From NCBI GenBank assembly GCA_014874455.1, contig JADBJL010000014.1, positions 1-54,982 on the forward strand: a DNA stretch of 54,982 bases, read 5' to 3'. Numbering within the stretch: position 1 is the stretch's first letter; every line of letters starts with the position of its first letter. The notes beneath the pieces are model-generated. The model had not been told where the DNA came from. It made no database searches and was given only the letters and a program-made list of their open reading frames with translations. The DNA comes from Thermomicrobiaceae bacterium (GTDB lineage Bacteria; Chloroflexota; Chloroflexia; Thermomicrobiales; Thermomicrobiaceae). Below are positions 33,967 through 43,817 of this stretch, one piece after another. Both the position numbers and the translations under genes were made by a program.

Positions 33967-34045
33967 CGGAAGAGCGTGTCCTTTCGGCAGTAGGACGGCC
34001 CTTTGGTAGAATCGTTACCAGCTTCGGCGAAATGGATCGCGAGCG

Positions 34046-35239
34046 ATGGTCGAACCCAGCAACCAGCGCTTACCGCGCGATCACGGGACCGGCATACCCT
34101 TGCCCGAGCTCGATTCTGAGGCAAGCGCACTCCGCTGGCGCGTCATCGCGTCGCTCGAGCGACAGGGGTTCGTCGTCGATAGCGGTGGAAGGCTAACCAT
34201 CACGGCTGAAACCACGAAGCAGGCAATTAGGCATCTTCACCGGGAAGCGAGGGAAGCCGCTATAGCCCGTGCGCGGCCGGCGCTGGCCCGTCATGAGTCC
34301 CGGTTGCTCCGCTACTTCGCGGCCGGCTCAGAGGTCGAGCCGGCGAGCGTGCGGCCGGTCTTGAGGGAAGTATTCGCTGGTACCGAAGAGGAGCTGCTGT
34401 TCCGTTACGCGAAGCTGCATTGGAGCATCCCGGTCTCCGCTGGCTACGGGCGGAGGCTGCGCTTTTTAGTCTTCGATGAGTTCACCGGCAAACTGATGGG
34501 ACTGTTCGGTCTCGGCGATCCCGTCTTCGCGCTCAACCCGCGCGACGCTTGGATCGGTTGGGATAAGGCAGCCCGTAGGGAACGACTCCGCCACGTGATG
34601 GACGCCTTCGTGGTCGGTGCGGTGCCACCCTATGCCGATCTTCTCTGCGGCAAGTTGGTGGCGCTCCTGATGACCAGCACCGAAGTGCGGGAAGCCTTCG
34701 CTCGCAGGTACGCTGCCCGTACGTCATGGATCAGTACCCGCCCCTTCGACGGGCAACTCGCCTTGATCACGACGACGTCCGCTCTGGGCCGATCGTCGCT
34801 CTACAACCGGCTGACCTTCGGCGGGCGCCGAGTCTTTCAGTCGGTCGGGTACACGTCCGGCTCAGGGGAATTCCACTTCGCGAATGGTCTGTACCATGAC
34901 TTGCTGCGCTTCGCCCGCGCGCGCTGCATACCACGCGCAAAACATGCACGATGGGGAAAGGGATGGCGCAGCCGGCGCGAGCTGGTACGGGCCGTGCTGC
35001 CGCTGCTCGGCCTCTCGCGGGAGCTCGTCTATCACGGCGTTCGTCGCGAGGTGTTCGTGGCTCCGCTGGCCGAGAATGCCCGCGCCTTCCTGCGGGGCGA
35101 GGAAGGGCGCCTCGTCCCGTACGAGATCTCCGTAAACGAGCTCTTCGCCTGGTTCAGGACTCGCTGGCTTCTACCGCGCGCTGGGCGAGACCAGCGCTAC
35201 CGTGCCTTCGATCCGGAGAGCTTGCGCCTATGGCACTGA
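34046..35239 (+). CDS. DUF4338 protein, Druantia DruA-like
   Basis: 397 residues, start ATG 34046. The stretch GYGRRLRFLVFDEFTGKLMG, then GLGDPVFALNPRDAWIGWDK and YADLLCGKLVALLM, is the recognisable core of DUF4338, the family of the DruA subunit of Druantia anti-phage systems. DUF4338 biochemistry is not established. First of three plus-strand genes; its stop overlaps the NurA start by ten bases, so they are translated together. None of the other Druantia subunits (DruB-DruE, the DUF1998 helicase) is present, so this is a different association. Confidence 0.8.
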   Translation: MVEPSNQRLPRDHGTGIPLPELDSEASALRWRVIASLERQGFVVDSGGRLTITAETTKQAIRHLHREAREAAIARARPALARHESRLLRYFAAGSEVEPASVRPVLREVFAGTEEELLFRYAKLHWSIPVSAGYGRRLRFLVFDEFTGKLMGLFGLGDPVFALNPRDAWIGWDKAARRERLRHVMDAFVVGAVPPYADLLCGKLVALLMTSTEVREAFARRYAARTSWISTRPFDGQLALITTTSALGRSSLYNRLTFGGRRVFQSVGYTSGSGEFHFANGLYHDLLRFARARCIPRAKHARWGKGWRSRRELVRAVLPLLGLSRELVYHGVRREVFVAPLAENARAFLRGEEGRLVPYEISVNELFAWFRTRWLLPRAGRDQRYRAFDPESLRLWH

Positions 35240-36393
35240 ACGAGGAAACCCCCCAACCGACGCCATTCATCGATCTCCCTGCTGCGCTGGTTGAGGAGAT
35301 GCTGGCCGAGGCCGGACAGGTTGCGGAGACGTTGTTCGCGACATTCCGCTCGCTCAGAGCGGAGCGAGAGCGGTTGCGTGAAGCGCTGGAGCAGCACGAC
35401 TTGCTCCTCCACGAGTCGGCACTCGGCTACCCTCCCCTGCCCACGACCTGTGGTGTCGATGGATCCTATGCCATCGAGCGGCTGCTGTCGGTCGATCTCG
35501 CGGCCTGTGCCGCGGTCGCCGTCGAGGGGCTGACCCCACCATCAGAGAAGAGGCACTGGGAGCAACCTCATCACCGACTCTTCGTTCGCTCGGAGATGCA
35601 CGATGTCGACACCGCCACGGTTCTGCGAGCAGTGATGGTGGGATATGAGCTTCTGCTCGCCGTCAGAGCACCGCACGACGTCGTGATGCTCGACGGAACC
35701 CTGACCTTACCGGTCATCTACTTCAATCAAGCGCTCAGCAAGTCCAGCGAGTCTCCCGAGTTGCAATCCTCGCGAGAATTTCGTTCCAGAGCGATCGAGT
35801 TCCTGGAAGCTTATAGAGAAATCCTTCAACCGGGTCGTCACGATAAGTGTTACGTGGGGCTACCGAAGTACACCACACGGCGAGAGATCGGCCGCCAGCT
35901 TGGATGGCCGGAGAACCAGGATGATCGCGGGCTGCTCACGTTTCTGCTCGAGGCGGGTGAATTGACCAAACCGCTAGCGCTCGAGCAGCCACGGCAGCCG
36001 TGGCATCTTGCTACCGGGACGCTCGCACTGGAGCTGCGGGAACCAGTCGAGGAGCTCGCACGACAGATCCAAAGCGCGTTGCAGCGGATCCGCGTGCTCT
36101 ACTATAAGCCGCACCAGTGGCTCCCCGCCGTTCGGCTCGAGCTCCCAGCCGCCGTCGCGAACAACCACTCTAGTCTCGGGCTGGTCGTCCAGGCAATCAA
36201 ATACCAGTGTGCGACGCCGGGGATGCTCGAGCCCTATCCCCTCTATCTCGCCGATCGGACGGTGAAGGCCCTCGCGCGAGCGTTGCCGGCCTTCCGCCAG
36301 GTGGCAACGCAGCACGTCTCCGAGCGCTATGAGGGTGAGATCACCGAGATCTTCTTCGGGATGCACGGATACCGCTCCGAGTCAGGAGTATGA
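35230..36393 (+). CDS. nurA: NurA-domain 5'-3' nuclease
   Basis: 387 residues from ATG 35230, inside the end of the DUF4338 gene. A helical N-terminus leads to CGVDGSYAIERLLSVDLAAC with Asp77 and then MLDGTLTLPVIYFNQ with Asp155, the acidic residues of the NurA RNase H-like nuclease; late residues YPLYLADRTVKALA supply a further conserved acid. NurA with HerA degrades DNA ends in archaeal recombination repair and, in bacteria, occurs in mobile and defence settings. Next gene begins one base after its stop. Confidence 0.85.
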   Translation: MALNEETPQPTPFIDLPAALVEEMLAEAGQVAETLFATFRSLRAERERLREALEQHDLLLHESALGYPPLPTTCGVDGSYAIERLLSVDLAACAAVAVEGLTPPSEKRHWEQPHHRLFVRSEMHDVDTATVLRAVMVGYELLLAVRAPHDVVMLDGTLTLPVIYFNQALSKSSESPELQSSREFRSRAIEFLEAYREILQPGRHDKCYVGLPKYTTRREIGRQLGWPENQDDRGLLTFLLEAGELTKPLALEQPRQPWHLATGTLALELREPVEELARQIQSALQRIRVLYYKPHQWLPAVRLELPAAVANNHSSLGLVVQAIKYQCATPGMLEPYPLYLADRTVKALARALPAFRQVATQHVSERYEGEITEIFFGMHGYRSESGV

Positions 36394-36394
36394 C

Positions 36395-38662
36395 ATGGAC
36401 GAACGCAACCTCGACCACCTGATCGATAAGACCGAACGGCTCGGGGTCATCGGCTCTCCCTCGTCGACGTCCGAACTCAGCCTGGACGTCCTCGGAACCG
36501 CCGTCGACCGAAAGCTCGTCGGCGAACTGGCGCTCTTCCGCTTTATGCAGGATGGGACACCCCACTACGCCCTTGGGCAGATCACCGAGGTCAAGCTGCG
36601 GAACATCTGGCACGAGGATCCCACCATGCGCAGCCTCATCCGCCAGCGCGGCCGTGTGGAGGCAGTGAGCGAACGGCAGGATACCCACCTCGCCCAAATG
36701 GTCGTCAGCGCCGTCTTCAAGGACGAAGGGGGGAACGGGTTCACGCCCAGCATCCTCGGCACGGTACCTGCCACCGGCACACCGATTCACCTCGTGACCG
36801 ATGAGACCCTCGACCTACTCCTGGCACGCTACCAGGATCAAGTGTTCTATCTCGGTCATGTCTACGGATCGAAGCCGAAGCTGCCGCTCTGGTTCAAGCA
36901 CTTCGACCGGGGATCGGACGGAGCTGGAGAAGCATACCACCTGGGGATCTTCGGCAAGACCGGTTCGGGCAAGTCCGTGCTGGCCAAAATGATCCTGCTC
37001 GCCTATGCGCGTTATCCGGGAATGGCTCTGCTGGTCATCGACCCGCAAGGCGAGTTCGCGCGTGACATGGACTTTACGCCCCCTCCCGGAGAGTTCCCGC
37101 TCCCACTGGGCCAGCTCCTTCGGGAGACGCTCCGAAAAGATGTCCGCGTCCTGACAGTTCGCAACCTGGTGCTTGACCGCTGGGAGCTGTTCGAACAAAT
37201 TCTCTTCGAGTCGAACTTTTTCGAATACCTGACCGTCCCGAAAGGGGAGAACCGGGCCAGCGCATGTAGTGTTCTCGTTGACAAGCTGCGGAAGGCAAAG
37301 GTGAAGCTGGCCTCGCTAGCCACGAGAGAGTCGTTCGACCGAGCATGGGCATTTCTGCAAGACGACAATGTCCAGCAAATCTTCTACCGGAGCAGCGACT
37401 CCCGGCGACGGTTCAACGCAGCGATTCAGCAGGCTGACCCAGACGAGTTCTACCGCGACCACTGGCGGCCGGTGGCTGAACTCTTCCGAAGCGAGCGCGA
37501 AGGGGCGATGACCGTTGAGAGTGCGCTGGGGTGGCTATTGAAGGCGGAGGACAGCCCAGCGGCGCAGCGGCCGGTGCTGGTCGTCGACCTCTCGCGCGAG
37601 CAGGCCGAAGGCCTCTTCTGGAACGATTCCATCCAGTCACTAGTGATCAAGCGCTTGCTCGACGGGCTTACGCTGACGGCTGAGCGCTCCTTCAAGGAGC
37701 AGCGCAGCCTGAACACCCTGGTTGTCATCGACGAGGCGCACCGGCTGGCGCCGCGCGAGCGGGCGCTGGATAACGAAGCCGCCGAGCAGGTGCGAAGAGC
37801 GCTCGTCGATGCGGCGCGCACCACGCGCAAGTACGGGCTTGGGTGGTTGTTCGTCAGCCAGACGCTGTCCAGTCTCCACCCGGAGATCCTGCAGCAGATC
37901 CGCATCTTCTTCTTCGGGTTCGGGCTCGGGCTCGGCCAGGAATTCCTCGCGCTCCAGCAGCTCGTCGGCTCCTCCGGCACGGCATTGGATCTCTACCGGC
38001 TCTTCCGCGATCCACATTCGGCTTTCGACGTCGCGAGCCGCGAGTACTCCTTCATGACGATCGGCCCGGTGAGCCCGCTCTCGTTCTCCGGCACCCCGCT
38101 GTTCTTCAACGCTTTCAACAACGTGGAGGAATTCCTCCAAGCCAACCGGCTTCGACTGGGTGGCACCAGGAACGTACCGTCACCCCGCGCCGCCACGTCG
38201 CAGCCAGTAGCCGTTGGACGGGCAGCATCGTCCGCAAGGCCACGTGTGGCTCCGGTAACGACGAGCGAGACCTCCGACGCCCCTGGAAGCGCGGCCGGCA
38301 TCAACGCTCTGCTGGAGCAGCTCGCGAAGGAGTGGGTAGCCGTTCGGAGTGCCGTCAAAGCGAAGAGTCCCCAGGCAGCCGCACTGCTCAGCTCGGCGAG
38401 GCCTGAGCATATTGCCGGCGATGTGCTCTATCTCGTGTCACCCCACGAGTTTCACCGCCAGCGACTGAACGACGATGCCATCCGCAAGGTGATCGAGGCG
38501 GTCATCGGCGAGCGGATCGGTCGCCGCTTTCGCGTGCGCTGCGTCGCTCCCAGCGAAATGCCGGTGCCCGCAGCGACGTCACCCGCCACACTGGATACCA
38601 GCGGGATGCCGTCGTCCGTGCACGGTTCTACCCTGCTCTCCCTGGAACAGGAAGGGGCCTGA
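36395..38662 (+). CDS. herA: HerA-like ATPase with C-terminal DnaX-like domain
   Basis: 755 residues from ATG 36395 (GGAG upstream). An N-terminal HAS-like barrel, then YHLGIFGKTGSGKSVLAKM (Walker A 187-194), LLVIDPQGEF, Walker B NTLVVIDEAHRLAPRE and the arginine-finger region near GLGWLFVSQTLSSL: a hexameric HerA DNA translocase. A serine-rich linker (about 590-630) is followed by an additional domain, about 634-718, WVAVRSAVKAKSPQAAALL ... HEFHRQRLNDDAIRKVIEAV ... RRFRVRCVA, which resembles the C-terminal domain of the clamp-loader subunit DnaX. That fusion is unusual. Forms the third gene of the operon with NurA. Confidence 0.85.
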   Translation: MDERNLDHLIDKTERLGVIGSPSSTSELSLDVLGTAVDRKLVGELALFRFMQDGTPHYALGQITEVKLRNIWHEDPTMRSLIRQRGRVEAVSERQDTHLAQMVVSAVFKDEGGNGFTPSILGTVPATGTPIHLVTDETLDLLLARYQDQVFYLGHVYGSKPKLPLWFKHFDRGSDGAGEAYHLGIFGKTGSGKSVLAKMILLAYARYPGMALLVIDPQGEFARDMDFTPPPGEFPLPLGQLLRETLRKDVRVLTVRNLVLDRWELFEQILFESNFFEYLTVPKGENRASACSVLVDKLRKAKVKLASLATRESFDRAWAFLQDDNVQQIFYRSSDSRRRFNAAIQQADPDEFYRDHWRPVAELFRSEREGAMTVESALGWLLKAEDSPAAQRPVLVVDLSREQAEGLFWNDSIQSLVIKRLLDGLTLTAERSFKEQRSLNTLVVIDEAHRLAPRERALDNEAAEQVRRALVDAARTTRKYGLGWLFVSQTLSSLHPEILQQIRIFFFGFGLGLGQEFLALQQLVGSSGTALDLYRLFRDPHSAFDVASREYSFMTIGPVSPLSFSGTPLFFNAFNNVEEFLQANRLRLGGTRNVPSPRAATSQPVAVGRAASSARPRVAPVTTSETSDAPGSAAGINALLEQLAKEWVAVRSAVKAKSPQAAALLSSARPEHIAGDVLYLVSPHEFHRQRLNDDAIRKVIEAVIGERIGRRFRVRCVAPSEMPVPAATSPATLDTSGMPSSVHGSTLLSLEQEGA

Positions 38663-38849
38663 AACCGGAACAGTCTACTCCGTAGGCCGGTATCCTTCAG
38701 ACACGGATGCGATGGCCCACCCCACCGCCCTAGCCGTATGCCCGGCTGCTCTCGGCAAGTGATGCCGAGCCCTGCTAGTGCCGCCACACCATGAGCAAGC
38801 CCAAAGACGCAACGAGTGGCGACCAATCTGTCTCGTCCGTACGTGGGTC

Positions 38850-39311: not shown

Positions 39312-42300
39312 ATGGCACAGCGAGCGAAGGCGACCAAGAGCGAGGCAGCCGGCACCGCGCGACGCTCTGGAGGGCTGCGCATAGTCCGCGTCTTTACCCG
39401 GCCAGGGCAGAACCCCTACGAGACGATCGCCTGGGCTCGCCGCACCTCCCGGATCACGAACCCGGACGGCTCGGTCGTCTTCCAGATGACCGACGCCGAG
39501 GTGCCCGAGCCCTGGTCGCAGGTCGCGACCGATATCGTGGTCTCGAAGTACTTCCGCAAGGCCGGCGTCCCGCAGTACGACGAGCAGGGCAACCCGATCC
39601 TCGACGAGCACGGTCAGCCGGTGCTCGGCCCCGAGCGCAGCGTGCGCCAGGTCGTCCGGCGGCTGGTGGGCTGCTGGCGCGACTGGGGCGAGCGCTACGG
39701 CTACTTCGCCACGCCGGAGGACGCTCAGGCGTTCGAGGACGAGCTCACCTACATGCTCCTCCACCAGATGGCCGCGCCCAACTCGCCCCAGTGGTTCAAT
39801 ACCGGGCTGTACTGGGCCTATGGCATCACCGGCCCCGCCCAGGGCCACGCCTACGTCGACCCCGACACCGGCGAGCTGAAGAAGTCCACCGACGCTTACT
39901 CTCGTCCCACTCCGCACGCCTGCTTCATCCAGTCGGTCGAAGACGACCTGGTCAACCCCGGTGGCATCTTCGACCTGGTCATGCGCGAGGCGCGCGTCTT
40001 CAAGTACGGCTCCGGCTCGGGCACCAACTTCTCCAAGATCCGGGCCGAGGGCGAGCCGCTCTCCGGCGGCGGCACCTCCTCCGGCTTGATGAGTTTCCTC
40101 AAGGTCTTCGACCGCGCCGCTGGGGCGATCAAGAGCGGCGGCACCACGCGCCGGGCGGCCAAGATGGTCGTCGTCGACGTCGACCACCCGGACATCGAGA
40201 AGTTCATCCGCTGGAAGGCCGAGGAGGAGAAGAAGGTCGCCGCGCTGATCGCCGCCGGCTACCCGGCCGACTTCAACGGCGAGGCCTACGCCACGGTCTC
40301 CGGCCAGAACTCCAACAACTCGGTGCGGGTGACCGACGAGTTCATCCAGGCCGTGCTCAACGACGGCGACTGGCACCTGCGCTGGCGGACCGATGGCCGC
40401 GTCTCCAAGACGGTCAAGGCCCGTTACCTGTGGGACCTGATCGCCGAGGCGGCCTGGCAGTGCGCCGACCCGGGCATCCAGTTCGACACCACCATCAACG
40501 ACTGGCACACCTGCCCGGCCTCCGGGCGCATCAATGCCTCCAACCCGTGCTTCACGGGCGATACGCGCATTCTGACCGAGCACGGGTTGATGCGCATCGA
40601 CGAGCTTGTCGGGGAGGGGATCGAGGGACGTTTCATCCGCGTCTTGCGGCGTGATGGTAGCCCGTCACGCCCCAGTCAGCTTATGCTGACCGGCATTAAT
40701 CCGGTTCTCCAGATTACCCTGTCAGACGGGCGAAAGCTTCGTACAACGCCGAATCACACCTGGATCCTTCGCGATGGAACCCGTAAGCCCGCTGCGGAGC
40801 TAGTCGACGGCGACGAGGTGCTCATTCATGACTTTCCTGTTGAGTACGAGGGCATCTGGGAGCTCCCGATCCGCATTGACCGCCAGTTGGGCGAGCGAAG
40901 CCTTCCGGCCATGCCCACGCGATGGTCGCCCGAGTTGGCTGAGATTCTCGGCCACCTAATCGGCGATGGTTGCATCGACTCGACCGGCGTCACCGTACTG
41001 GTCTACGGCACACATGAAGATGAGCGGGAGGAGACGGCCGAACGACATAAGCGATGGCTTGAGGCGCTCTTCGGCATTGCGGTGAGTGATGCGCGTGTTG
41101 GGAACGGCTGCCGGCAACTCCGTATCTCCCGACGAGCAGTTGGCCGTTTCTTCGCTGCCCTCGGAGTCAAGACAGCGCGCGCGCACGACAAGCGGGTGCC
41201 GAACGCCCTCTTCACGGCACCGAAGGAGATCGTTGCCGCGTTTCTGCGTGGCTACTTCGGTGCTGACGGTACATGCTATGGTCGCGGCGAGATGGGAGAG
41301 TGCGAGGTTTCCGCAGCGAGTGCGGCCAGAGGGTTGCTCGAAGACATCCAGCTCCTCCTCCAGCTCTTCGGCATTCGTTCCTCCATTGGTGAGATGCGCG
41401 GTGCCGAGAAGGAAGGGTTTGGGGGATATACCTCTCGAGCCTGCTATCGTCTCCGGGTACATCCCCAGGATCTCGAGCGCTTCAGCGCTGATATTGGGTT
41501 TTCTGTCCGCTACAAGCAGGAGCGGCTTCGGAGCCTTCTGGGCAGCCGGCGAATGAGCAAGGCGGCCGATCGGCCGGTGCACGTCGTACGGGTCGAAGAG
41601 GACGGCGAGGAGCTGACCTACAATCTGACCGAACCACATGATCATGCAGTCTGGGCCAAAGGGGTTTATATTGCGCAGTGTTCCGAGTATATGTTCCTCG
41701 ATGACACTGCCTGCAATTTGGCTTCCCTGAACCTGATGAAGTTCTATGACCCGGAGACCGGCGTCTTCGACGTCGAGACCTTCCGCCACGCCGTCCGGCT
41801 CTGGACGGTCGTGCTCGAGATCAGCGTGCTGATGGCCCAGTACCCCAGCGATGCCATCGCCTGGAAGAGCTACGAGTTCCGCACGCTCGGGCTCGGCTAT
41901 GCCAATTTGGGCTCGCTCTTGATGACCATGGGCCTGCCCTACGACTCCGACGAGGCCCGCGCCATCGCTGCCGCCATCACCGCCATCATGACCGGCGAGG
42001 CCTATGCCACCTCGGCCGAGATGGCCGAGGCGCTCGGCCCCTTCCCCGGCTTCGCGCCCAACCGCGAGCACATGCTGCGGGTGATCCGCAACCATCGGCG
42101 GGCCGCCTACAACGCCCACCCGGCCGAGTACGAGGGGCTGCACACCCCGCCGGTCGGCCTGAACCCGGCGCACTGCCCGCCGTACCTGGTGCAGGCCGCT
42201 CGCCAGGCCTGGGATCGCGCGCTGGAGCTGGGCGAGCGCCACGGCTACCGCAACGCCCAGGTCACGCTGCTGGCGCCGACCGGGACGATCGGCCTGCTGA

Positions 42301-43817
42301 TGGACTGCGACACCACTGGCGTCGAGCCGGACTTCGCGCTGGTCAAGTTCAAGAAGCTGGCCGGCGGCGGCTACTTCAAGATCGCCAACCGCTCGATCGC
42401 CCCGGCGCTGCGCCGCCTCGGCTACTCGCCGGAGCAGATCGAGGACATCCTGCGCTACGTGCTCGGCACGCTCTCGCTGGAGGGCGCGCCGCACATCAAC
42501 CGCGAGTCGCTGCGCGCGCGCGGGTTCACCGACGCCGATCTCGCCCGGATCGAGCAGGCGCTGCCCTCGGTCTTCGAGCTCTCCTTCGCCTTCAGCCCCT
42601 GGACGCTGGGCGAGGAGACGCTGCGGCGGCTCGGGTTCACCCCGGAGCAGTGGACGCGGCCCGACTTCGACCTGCTGCGCGAGCTGGGCTTCACCCGGCA
42701 GCAGATCGACGAGGCGAACGACGTGATCTGCGGCCGGCAGACCGTCGAGGGAGCGCCGCACCTCAAGCCCGAACACCTGCCGGTGTTCGACTGCGCCAAC
42801 AAGTGCGGCAAGCACGGCACGCGCTTCATCCATCACCTGGGCCACATCCGGATGATGGCGGCCGTGCAGCCGTTCCTCTCCGGCGCCATCTCCAAGACGA
42901 TCAATATGCCGAACGAGGTGACCGTGCAGGACGTGGCCGACGCCTACCTGGAGTCCTGGCGGCTGGGCCTGAAGGCGCTGGCGATCTACCGCGACGGCTC
43001 CAAGCTCTCGCAGCCGCTCTCGACCCGGGCGGAGAAGAAGGCCGAGGAGAAGGAGCCGGAGGCTCAGGCTGAGAAGCAGGTGGTCATCGTCGAGCGGCCG
43101 CGGCGGCGCCCGCTGCCGCCGAAGCGGCGCGGCATCACCTACGAGGGCCGGGTGGCCGGTCACAAGATCTACCTGCGCACCGGCGAGTACGAGGACGGCA
43201 CGCTGGGCGAGATCTTCGTCGATATGCACAAGGAGGGCGCGGCCTTCCGCAGCCTGATGAACTGCTTCGCGATCGCCATCTCCAAGGGCTTGCAGTACGG
43301 CGTGCCGCTGGAGGAGTTCGTCGATACCTTCACCTTCCAGCGCTTCGAGCCGCAGGGGCTGGTCGAAGGGCACCCGTACATCAAGATGGCGACCTCCATC
43401 GTCGACTACATCTTCCGCGTGCTGGGCTACGAGTACCTGGGCCGCACCGACTTCGTGCAGGTGCAGCCGCCGATCCACGGCGGCGATACCGACGAGGCGC
43501 CACCTCGGAGCGAGAACGCGGCTCCCGCACCGGAGCAGCGCGCCGGTGAAGCGGCACCGCCGAACGGCTCGCCGCCGAGTAGCAGCGCGCACTACCAGAA
43601 CGGGCAGCGCCAGGAGGCTGAAGAGCTGGTGACCGTGGTCCAGGGGCCGACCCAGGCCGCCGCCCAGCGCGGGCCGCGCCCGGCCGACGCCTTGAGCGAG
43701 CAGCTCTCGCAGCTCATGGGCGATGCGCCGTTCTGCGACGTCTGCGGCCACATCACCGTGCGCAACGGCTCCTGCTACAAGTGCCTCAACTGCGGCAACA
43801 GCCTCGGCTGCTCGTAG
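39312..43817 (+). CDS. nrdJ: Adenosylcobalamin-dependent ribonucleotide reductase with intein
   Basis: 1501 codons: 1124 residues of class II reductase plus a 377-residue intein. Extein features: an N-terminal domain, [19 protein letters not shown], the interrupted [21 protein letters not shown] (active-site loop), [20 protein letters not shown], and the C-terminal zinc site [10 protein letters not shown] ... CYKCLNCG. Length with intein removed fits NrdJ. Reduces ribonucleotides to deoxyribonucleotides using adenosylcobalamin. The intein must splice for activity because it sits directly before the presumed radical cysteine. A terminator follows the stop. Confidence 0.95.
40548..41678 (+). 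other. Intein with LAGLIDADG homing endonuclease in nrdJ
   Basis: 377 residues from Cys413 of the precursor to Gln789. Splicing blocks: [36 protein letters not shown] with the TxxH histidine, [26 protein letters not shown] helices at [15 protein letters not shown] and [15 protein letters not shown]. The C-terminus is Ala-Gln rather than His-Asn, so the last step would cyclise Gln. The next residue, Cys790, is both the +1 nucleophile and presumably the radical cysteine. GC-poorer codons than the extein indicate horizontal origin. Confidence 0.9.

Follow-up and report, generated by a model that had tools for sequence, protein, structure and literature searches.

This study identifies a three-gene set, consisting of a DruA-family (DUF4338) gene, a NurA-family nuclease gene and a HerA-type DNA translocase gene, as a real, conserved and mobile system. 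The set lies on contig JADBJL010000014.1 (54,982 nucleotides; assembly GCA_014874455.1) of a Thermomicrobiaceae bacterium. This whole stretch, called the window here, is one entire contig within a 3.4-Mb genome; among named relatives, the nearest, with a NurA 93% identical, is another Thermomicrobiaceae bacterium, also uncultured. The trio is most likely a defence system, and a modification-type logic, in which DruA would mark DNA and HerA-NurA would degrade it, is our leading, unproven model of how it works. The features under discussion are as follows.

34046-35239, plus strand: DruA-family (DUF4338) gene, 397 aa; PF14236 and PADLOC DruA1 matches, predicted GNAT-like acyltransferase fold; putative DNA-modifying component of the trio
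35230-36393, plus strand: NurA-family nuclease gene, 387 aa; PF09376 match and predicted structure
36395-38662, plus strand: HerA-type hexameric DNA translocase gene, 755 aa; PF01935 match, PDB profile matches and Walker motifs
38297-38539, plus strand: C-terminal DnaX (tau) domain of HerA; PF20964, 37 bits
33969-38833, no strand: approximate extent of the gained or lost unit; blastn of the window against sister genomes

A conserved and mobile cassette

The three genes are tightly coupled on the plus strand. The DruA stop codon TGA occupies 35237-35239 and the NurA ATG begins at 35230, giving an overlap of 10 bases, while NurA ends at 36393 and is separated by a single spacer base, 36394, from the HerA ATG at 36395. 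The initial annotation of this DNA, made from the letters alone, had described this arrangement exactly to the base. Its assignment of the first gene to DUF4338/DruA also holds firmly, as the protein matches Pfam PF14236 with 355.4 bits over profile positions 2-297 (gathering score 27) and PADLOC DruA1 with 390 bits. The second protein matches PF09376 with a modest 24.5 bits (cut-off 21), and the third matches PF01935 with 49.1 bits (cut-off 23.2).

Linkage of the genes was estimated from a sample of one genome per species, scanned with the NurA alignment alone, which gave 80 loci. A DruA-family gene is found within the cassette in 74 of these, before NurA in 72 and after HerA in two (L136 and L156; L and G numbers are our identifiers for loci and genomes), and the cassette genes mostly overlap or are separated by a few bases. 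By chance, about 0.004 adjacent DruA pairs would be expected in 80 loci, given that 14 of the 151 genomes sampled from the window's phylum contain DruA. In the reverse direction, a PF14236 search of this independent set of 151 genomes found the family in 14, of which nine carry it in this cassette. These two results rule out a chance neighbourhood, and they bear out the view, on which the initial annotation had staked its proposal, that the neighbourhood is conserved elsewhere. The trio is carried by hosts from about 22 phyla of both bacteria and archaea; most of these hosts are metagenome bins, so that individual phylum placements may be wrong, and the cultured hosts include Thermanaerothrix daxensis GNS-1, Caldanaerobacter subterraneus DSM 13054 and Pyrinomonas methylaliphatogenes K22. 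Six of the 80 loci have no DruA. Two of them (L115 and L132) are truncated where their contigs stop, three are archaeal (L158, L159 and L161, the last being a NurA-HerA-Mre11-Rad50 cluster), and one (L137) belongs to Pyrinomonas, where it is an additional NurA-HerA copy in a genome that holds an intact trio elsewhere. In L137 a transposase is located just upstream of a shortened NurA.

Comparison with close relatives reveals that the cassette comes and goes as a unit. The unit is present in G000 and G003 and absent in G001 and G002, two genomes of the same genus in which the genes on either side of the site are shared with 95-98% protein identity. In blastn comparisons with the sister genomes, homology on the left stops at 33968/33969 and restarts at 38834, indicating that a unit of about 4.9 kb with only the three genes has been gained or lost. 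Over 61 loci the pairwise distances of the proteins are correlated, with Mantel r values of 0.71 for DruA-NurA, 0.77 for NurA-HerA and 0.49 for DruA-HerA, all shuffles being lower, which suggests that the three genes move mainly together. Furthermore, the window DruA nests among DruAs of Pseudomonadota, Gemmatimonadota, Binatota and Acidobacteriota in the DruA tree. Taken with the correlated distances, this placement among other phyla argues that the trio moves horizontally. The tree carries a long-branch warning for divergent DruAs, and the order of origin of the Druantia and trio DruAs is therefore not settled. Between G000 and G003 the ratio of nonsynonymous to synonymous divergence (dN/dS) is 0.16-0.26 for all three genes. 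It was also observed that the synonymous divergence of HerA between the window cassette and G003 (dS 0.47) is far above that of its partners DruA (0.13) and NurA (0.20), for which recombination is a possible cause.

Folds and motifs of the three proteins

The predicted NurA model has a mean confidence (pLDDT) of 92.9 and matches archaeal NurA of Sulfolobus and Thermococcus (9x1m/2ygk) at Z 22, so the modest Pfam score of this protein is no problem. Lower matches were obtained with the TdpB chain of TdpAB (8wfd_G, Z 14.3) and with the Deinococcus radiodurans structure 7f6d (Z 12.6). Acidic residues had been noticed in the initial annotation, and D77, E140, D155 and D342 are unchanged in an alignment of 40 relatives; the protein combines an RNase H-like fold with the conserved acidic residues of a NurA. 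HerA, named as such in the initial annotation, likewise has its central domain and keeps intact Walker motifs: it carries Walker A (GKTGSGKS, 187), DPQGEF (216), Walker B (VIDEAHR, ~446) and RTTRK (475). Its profile matches the HerA and TdpA chains in the PDB (TdpA, E 1.2e-6); a PDB sequence search with DruA or NurA gave no useful match. The C-terminal DnaX domain of HerA is 51% identical to the genome's own DnaX, is restricted to the window's genus and is missing from the other HerAs aligned. Such a tail may tether HerA to the replisome.

The pair shares its two folds and its motifs with the HerA-NurA of archaea and Deinococcus, which have no DruA and have been proposed for end resection. However, the other HerA of the window's genome adjoins Mre11, and the genome also encodes a PDDEXK_1 protein. 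This separate HerA-Mre11 locus and this protein suggest that the NurA-HerA pair of the window is accessory. It is unlikely that the pair is the housekeeping HerA-NurA of the lineage, in view of the same locus and of the two sister genomes that live without the cassette.

For DruA, the AlphaFold2 model (pLDDT 91.4) has a GNAT fold: in VIA-align, GNAT chains fill the list at Z 8.7-10.1, headed by phage Mu Mom at Z 10.1 over 180 residues. In Foldseek the matches are weak, the best being the tRNA cytidine acetyltransferase TmcA (E 0.03). The predicted model agrees with a published description of DUF4338 as a GNAT domain that some DndF proteins carry as a fusion (PMC10853773). Residues G152, P194, K203, S251, Y253 and R378 are invariant in DruAs of the window type, and the invariant G202-K203 is P-loop-like. 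A relationship with Mom, which modifies DNA bases, is seen more directly in a short DruA subfamily. A profile alignment of this subfamily with the Mom family has a probability of 92% (E 6.5e-7); the short DruA of G189 (L251 in the Pfam Mom test) reaches 21.9 bits against Mom PF25680 (E 1.6e-4), under the cut-off of 27.1; and in a hand alignment the short DruAs and Mom have in common HY, then S, F-x-D and G-x-x-Y-x-A-x-N-F/W. Mom resembles the trio DruA in its GNAT-related fold but, unlike it, has no HerA-NurA partner.

Proposed function and alternatives

We propose that the trio may be an accessory system, moved horizontally and directed against foreign DNA, with a mode of action like that of restriction-modification. 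In this proposal DruA, as a GNAT-fold enzyme related to Mom, would label the DNA of its own cell with a mark of acyl or similar type. The hexameric ring of HerA would feed unmarked DNA into the NurA dimer, which would cut both strands, so that incoming phage or plasmid DNA would be shredded while marked DNA would stall or escape the pump. We infer that the three proteins may form a complex, that DruA may modify DNA, and that the trio may have a self/non-self logic and an anti-phage action. Such a defence, with DruA marking self DNA and HerA-NurA degrading unmarked DNA, is favoured here tentatively, at somewhat less than an even chance. The initial annotation had suggested that foreign DNA could be marked or recognised by DUF4338 and degraded by HerA-NurA. 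The division of labour agrees with the GNAT fold of DruA, the top match to Mom and the DruA relative that matches the Mom family; the polarity differs, as we favour a mark on self.

The closest precedent for this division of labour is TdpABC. TdpAB is the HerA-NurA part of a phosphorothioate-dependent restriction system, and TdpC is its phosphorothioation enzyme. A modification enzyme thus works there with TdpA, a hexamer similar to HerA, and TdpB, a dimer similar to NurA, and the NurA and HerA of the trio match the TdpAB structures (8wfd and 8wet). It is by analogy with this modifier-plus-HerA-NurA arrangement that we consider DruA the mark and HerA-NurA the cutter. However, the trio is not a Tdp system: no TdpC-like gene adjoins the window cassette, the modifier slot is filled by a PF14236 protein of GNAT fold, and the window NurA resembles archaeal NurA (Z 22) more than it does TdpB. 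Neither is it a standard Druantia, which is ruled out. The PF14236 family is common to Druantia type I and the window cassette, but only NurA and HerA accompany the window DruA, with neither the YprA-type helicase DruE nor DruB, DruC or DruD beside it, as had been noted initially, and in the tree the DruAs of Druantia type group in a separate clade, apart from the trio clade of the window. Neighbours of Druantia type were found only in G300, G156 and the prophage contigs L167 and L168, an assignment based on protein lengths and similar N termini, not on profiles. Other anti-phage systems, Sir2-HerA and HerA-DUF4297, also pair HerA with a nuclease or NADase effector (PMC11291478); they are two-gene systems with other effectors and no DruA. 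In the literature searched, whose coverage stops short of Doron 2018 and the Tdp paper, we found no description of the DruA, NurA and HerA set, in line with the initial annotation, which knew of none either.

Several observations weigh against a marking defence. The Mom match of the window DruA is tied with those of ordinary GNATs, at Z 9-9.9 in VIA-align. DruAs of the window type show no direct profile similarity to Mom and no Pfam match to it (PF25680), and the window DruA does not have the SFAD..G..YQA.N signature of Mom. It also appears to lack Mom's invariant H58 and D149 in the hand alignment, so its chemistry may differ. The cassette is flanked by CocE-type hydrolase and ribonucleotide reductase genes, that is, by ordinary metabolism. 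When flanking genes were scanned with PADLOC against a control of 131 proteins from random regions of similar genomes, 152 families were found versus 126 in the control, which is not clearly above it. Finally, four genomes of the window's family (G008, G011, G014 and G018) have an intact NurA and no DruA, with HerA seen directly next to NurA in G008, suggesting that NurA-HerA is tolerable alone there and not lethal. The tolerance of the pair without DruA favours a licensing role of DruA, or another protection. The conserved NurA acidic residues are also present in G008 and G011. In the PADLOC scan, however, DNA methylases alone stand out in the flanks, MTase_II being found in four versus zero members of the top lists.

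A first alternative is an anti-phage reading without any DNA mark, in which DruA is a sensor, an adaptor or a protein acyltransferase that licenses HerA-NurA upon foreign DNA or a phage product, much as has been proposed for the partner-specific subunits of Druantia. We consider this reading on the unlikely side. Relatives with NurA-HerA and no DruA suit an inactive default better than self-marking, and differing DruA subfamilies fill the slot, as they would for a fast-evolving sensor. Some cassettes also enclose effector-like genes: a GmrSD restriction protein between NurA and HerA in L115, a sacsin/NO VEIN protein between DruA and NurA in L107 (L108 has a similar one), and, between the same two genes in L104, a pentapeptide-repeat protein. 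In Druantia III, moreover, the partner DruH is a proposed sensor (PMC13192584). Against this, the GNAT fold and the P-loop-like G202-K203 suggest that DruA is an enzyme, and lone DruA genes in phage contigs L163, adjoining a dATP/dGTP diphosphohydrolase gene, and L165, near PAPS-reductase and ParB genes, are easier to reconcile with a modifier than with a host sensor. These lone genes would fit an anti-restriction modifier, although this is no proof.

A repair or recombination module, in which HerA-NurA resects ends and DruA assists, appears quite unlikely. Repair and end resection have been put forward as roles of the Deinococcus and archaeal HerA-NurA (PMC9960219), a complete trio stands beside RusA in the viral contig L164, and the DnaX tau domain of the window HerA could provide a link to the replisome. 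However, the trio has a patchy distribution, spreads horizontally and is missing from sister genomes, and the HerA-Mre11 locus is separate. Thermococcus HerA-NurA pumps duplex DNA into NurA, where both strands are cut, and in T. kodakarensis it makes no 3' overhangs of the kind that recombination needs; the authors favour an antiviral use (PMC12977600). We regard as least probable, and very improbable indeed, that the cassette is selfish or resembles a transposon, with genes that act to maintain or transfer the cassette itself. A compact unit does move between distant phyla, and one plasmid DUF4338 match is annotated as an ISAs1 transposase, but no integrase, terminal repeats or target duplication are visible at the empty-site junction and the trio occupies varied chromosomal sites.

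What is the wider implication if a marking defence is correct? DruA proteins are annotated as parts of Druantia. Here DruA recurrently partners two enzymes of known mechanism, including in cultured thermophiles, and such a simple recurrent partnership makes its function directly testable. The trio would then represent the GNAT-based equivalent of Tdp, which relies on phosphorothioate, and would point to a new DNA modification. We also speculate, as a rather doubtful extension, that the trio represents a widespread, undescribed class of restriction-modification in which DruA acylates bases and HerA-NurA destroys unmarked DNA, with HerA-NurA the older partner of DruA and Druantia type I having borrowed DruA. 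In any case, a lone DruA match should not be annotated as Druantia.

Variants of the cassette and a neighbouring gene

In G095, G160 and their relatives, DruA is replaced by a PF14236 protein of shorter length and divergent sequence ('DruAv', scoring 112.6 bits in G095), with the same NurA-HerA behind it. Further Chloroflexota DruA genes lie outside the main cassette. In G104, such a DruA is accompanied by a more divergent NurA and HerA; in G403, DruA occurs with a divergent HerA and a NurA of sub-threshold score; and in G366 and G335 it occurs with a divergent HerA. In G189 (L254), the protein after DruAv has 353 aa, matches nothing in Pfam and may represent another lineage of NurA type; a weakly HerA-like protein comes next. 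Locus L092 (934-6042) has a DruE-type helicase (DEAD, MZB) directly upstream of DruA-NurA-HerA, an arrangement that is possibly a hybrid with Druantia.

In the window itself, the ribonucleotide reductase gene (39312-43817) contains an intein-like insertion at about 40550-41678, which G002 and G003 lack and G001 apparently shares.

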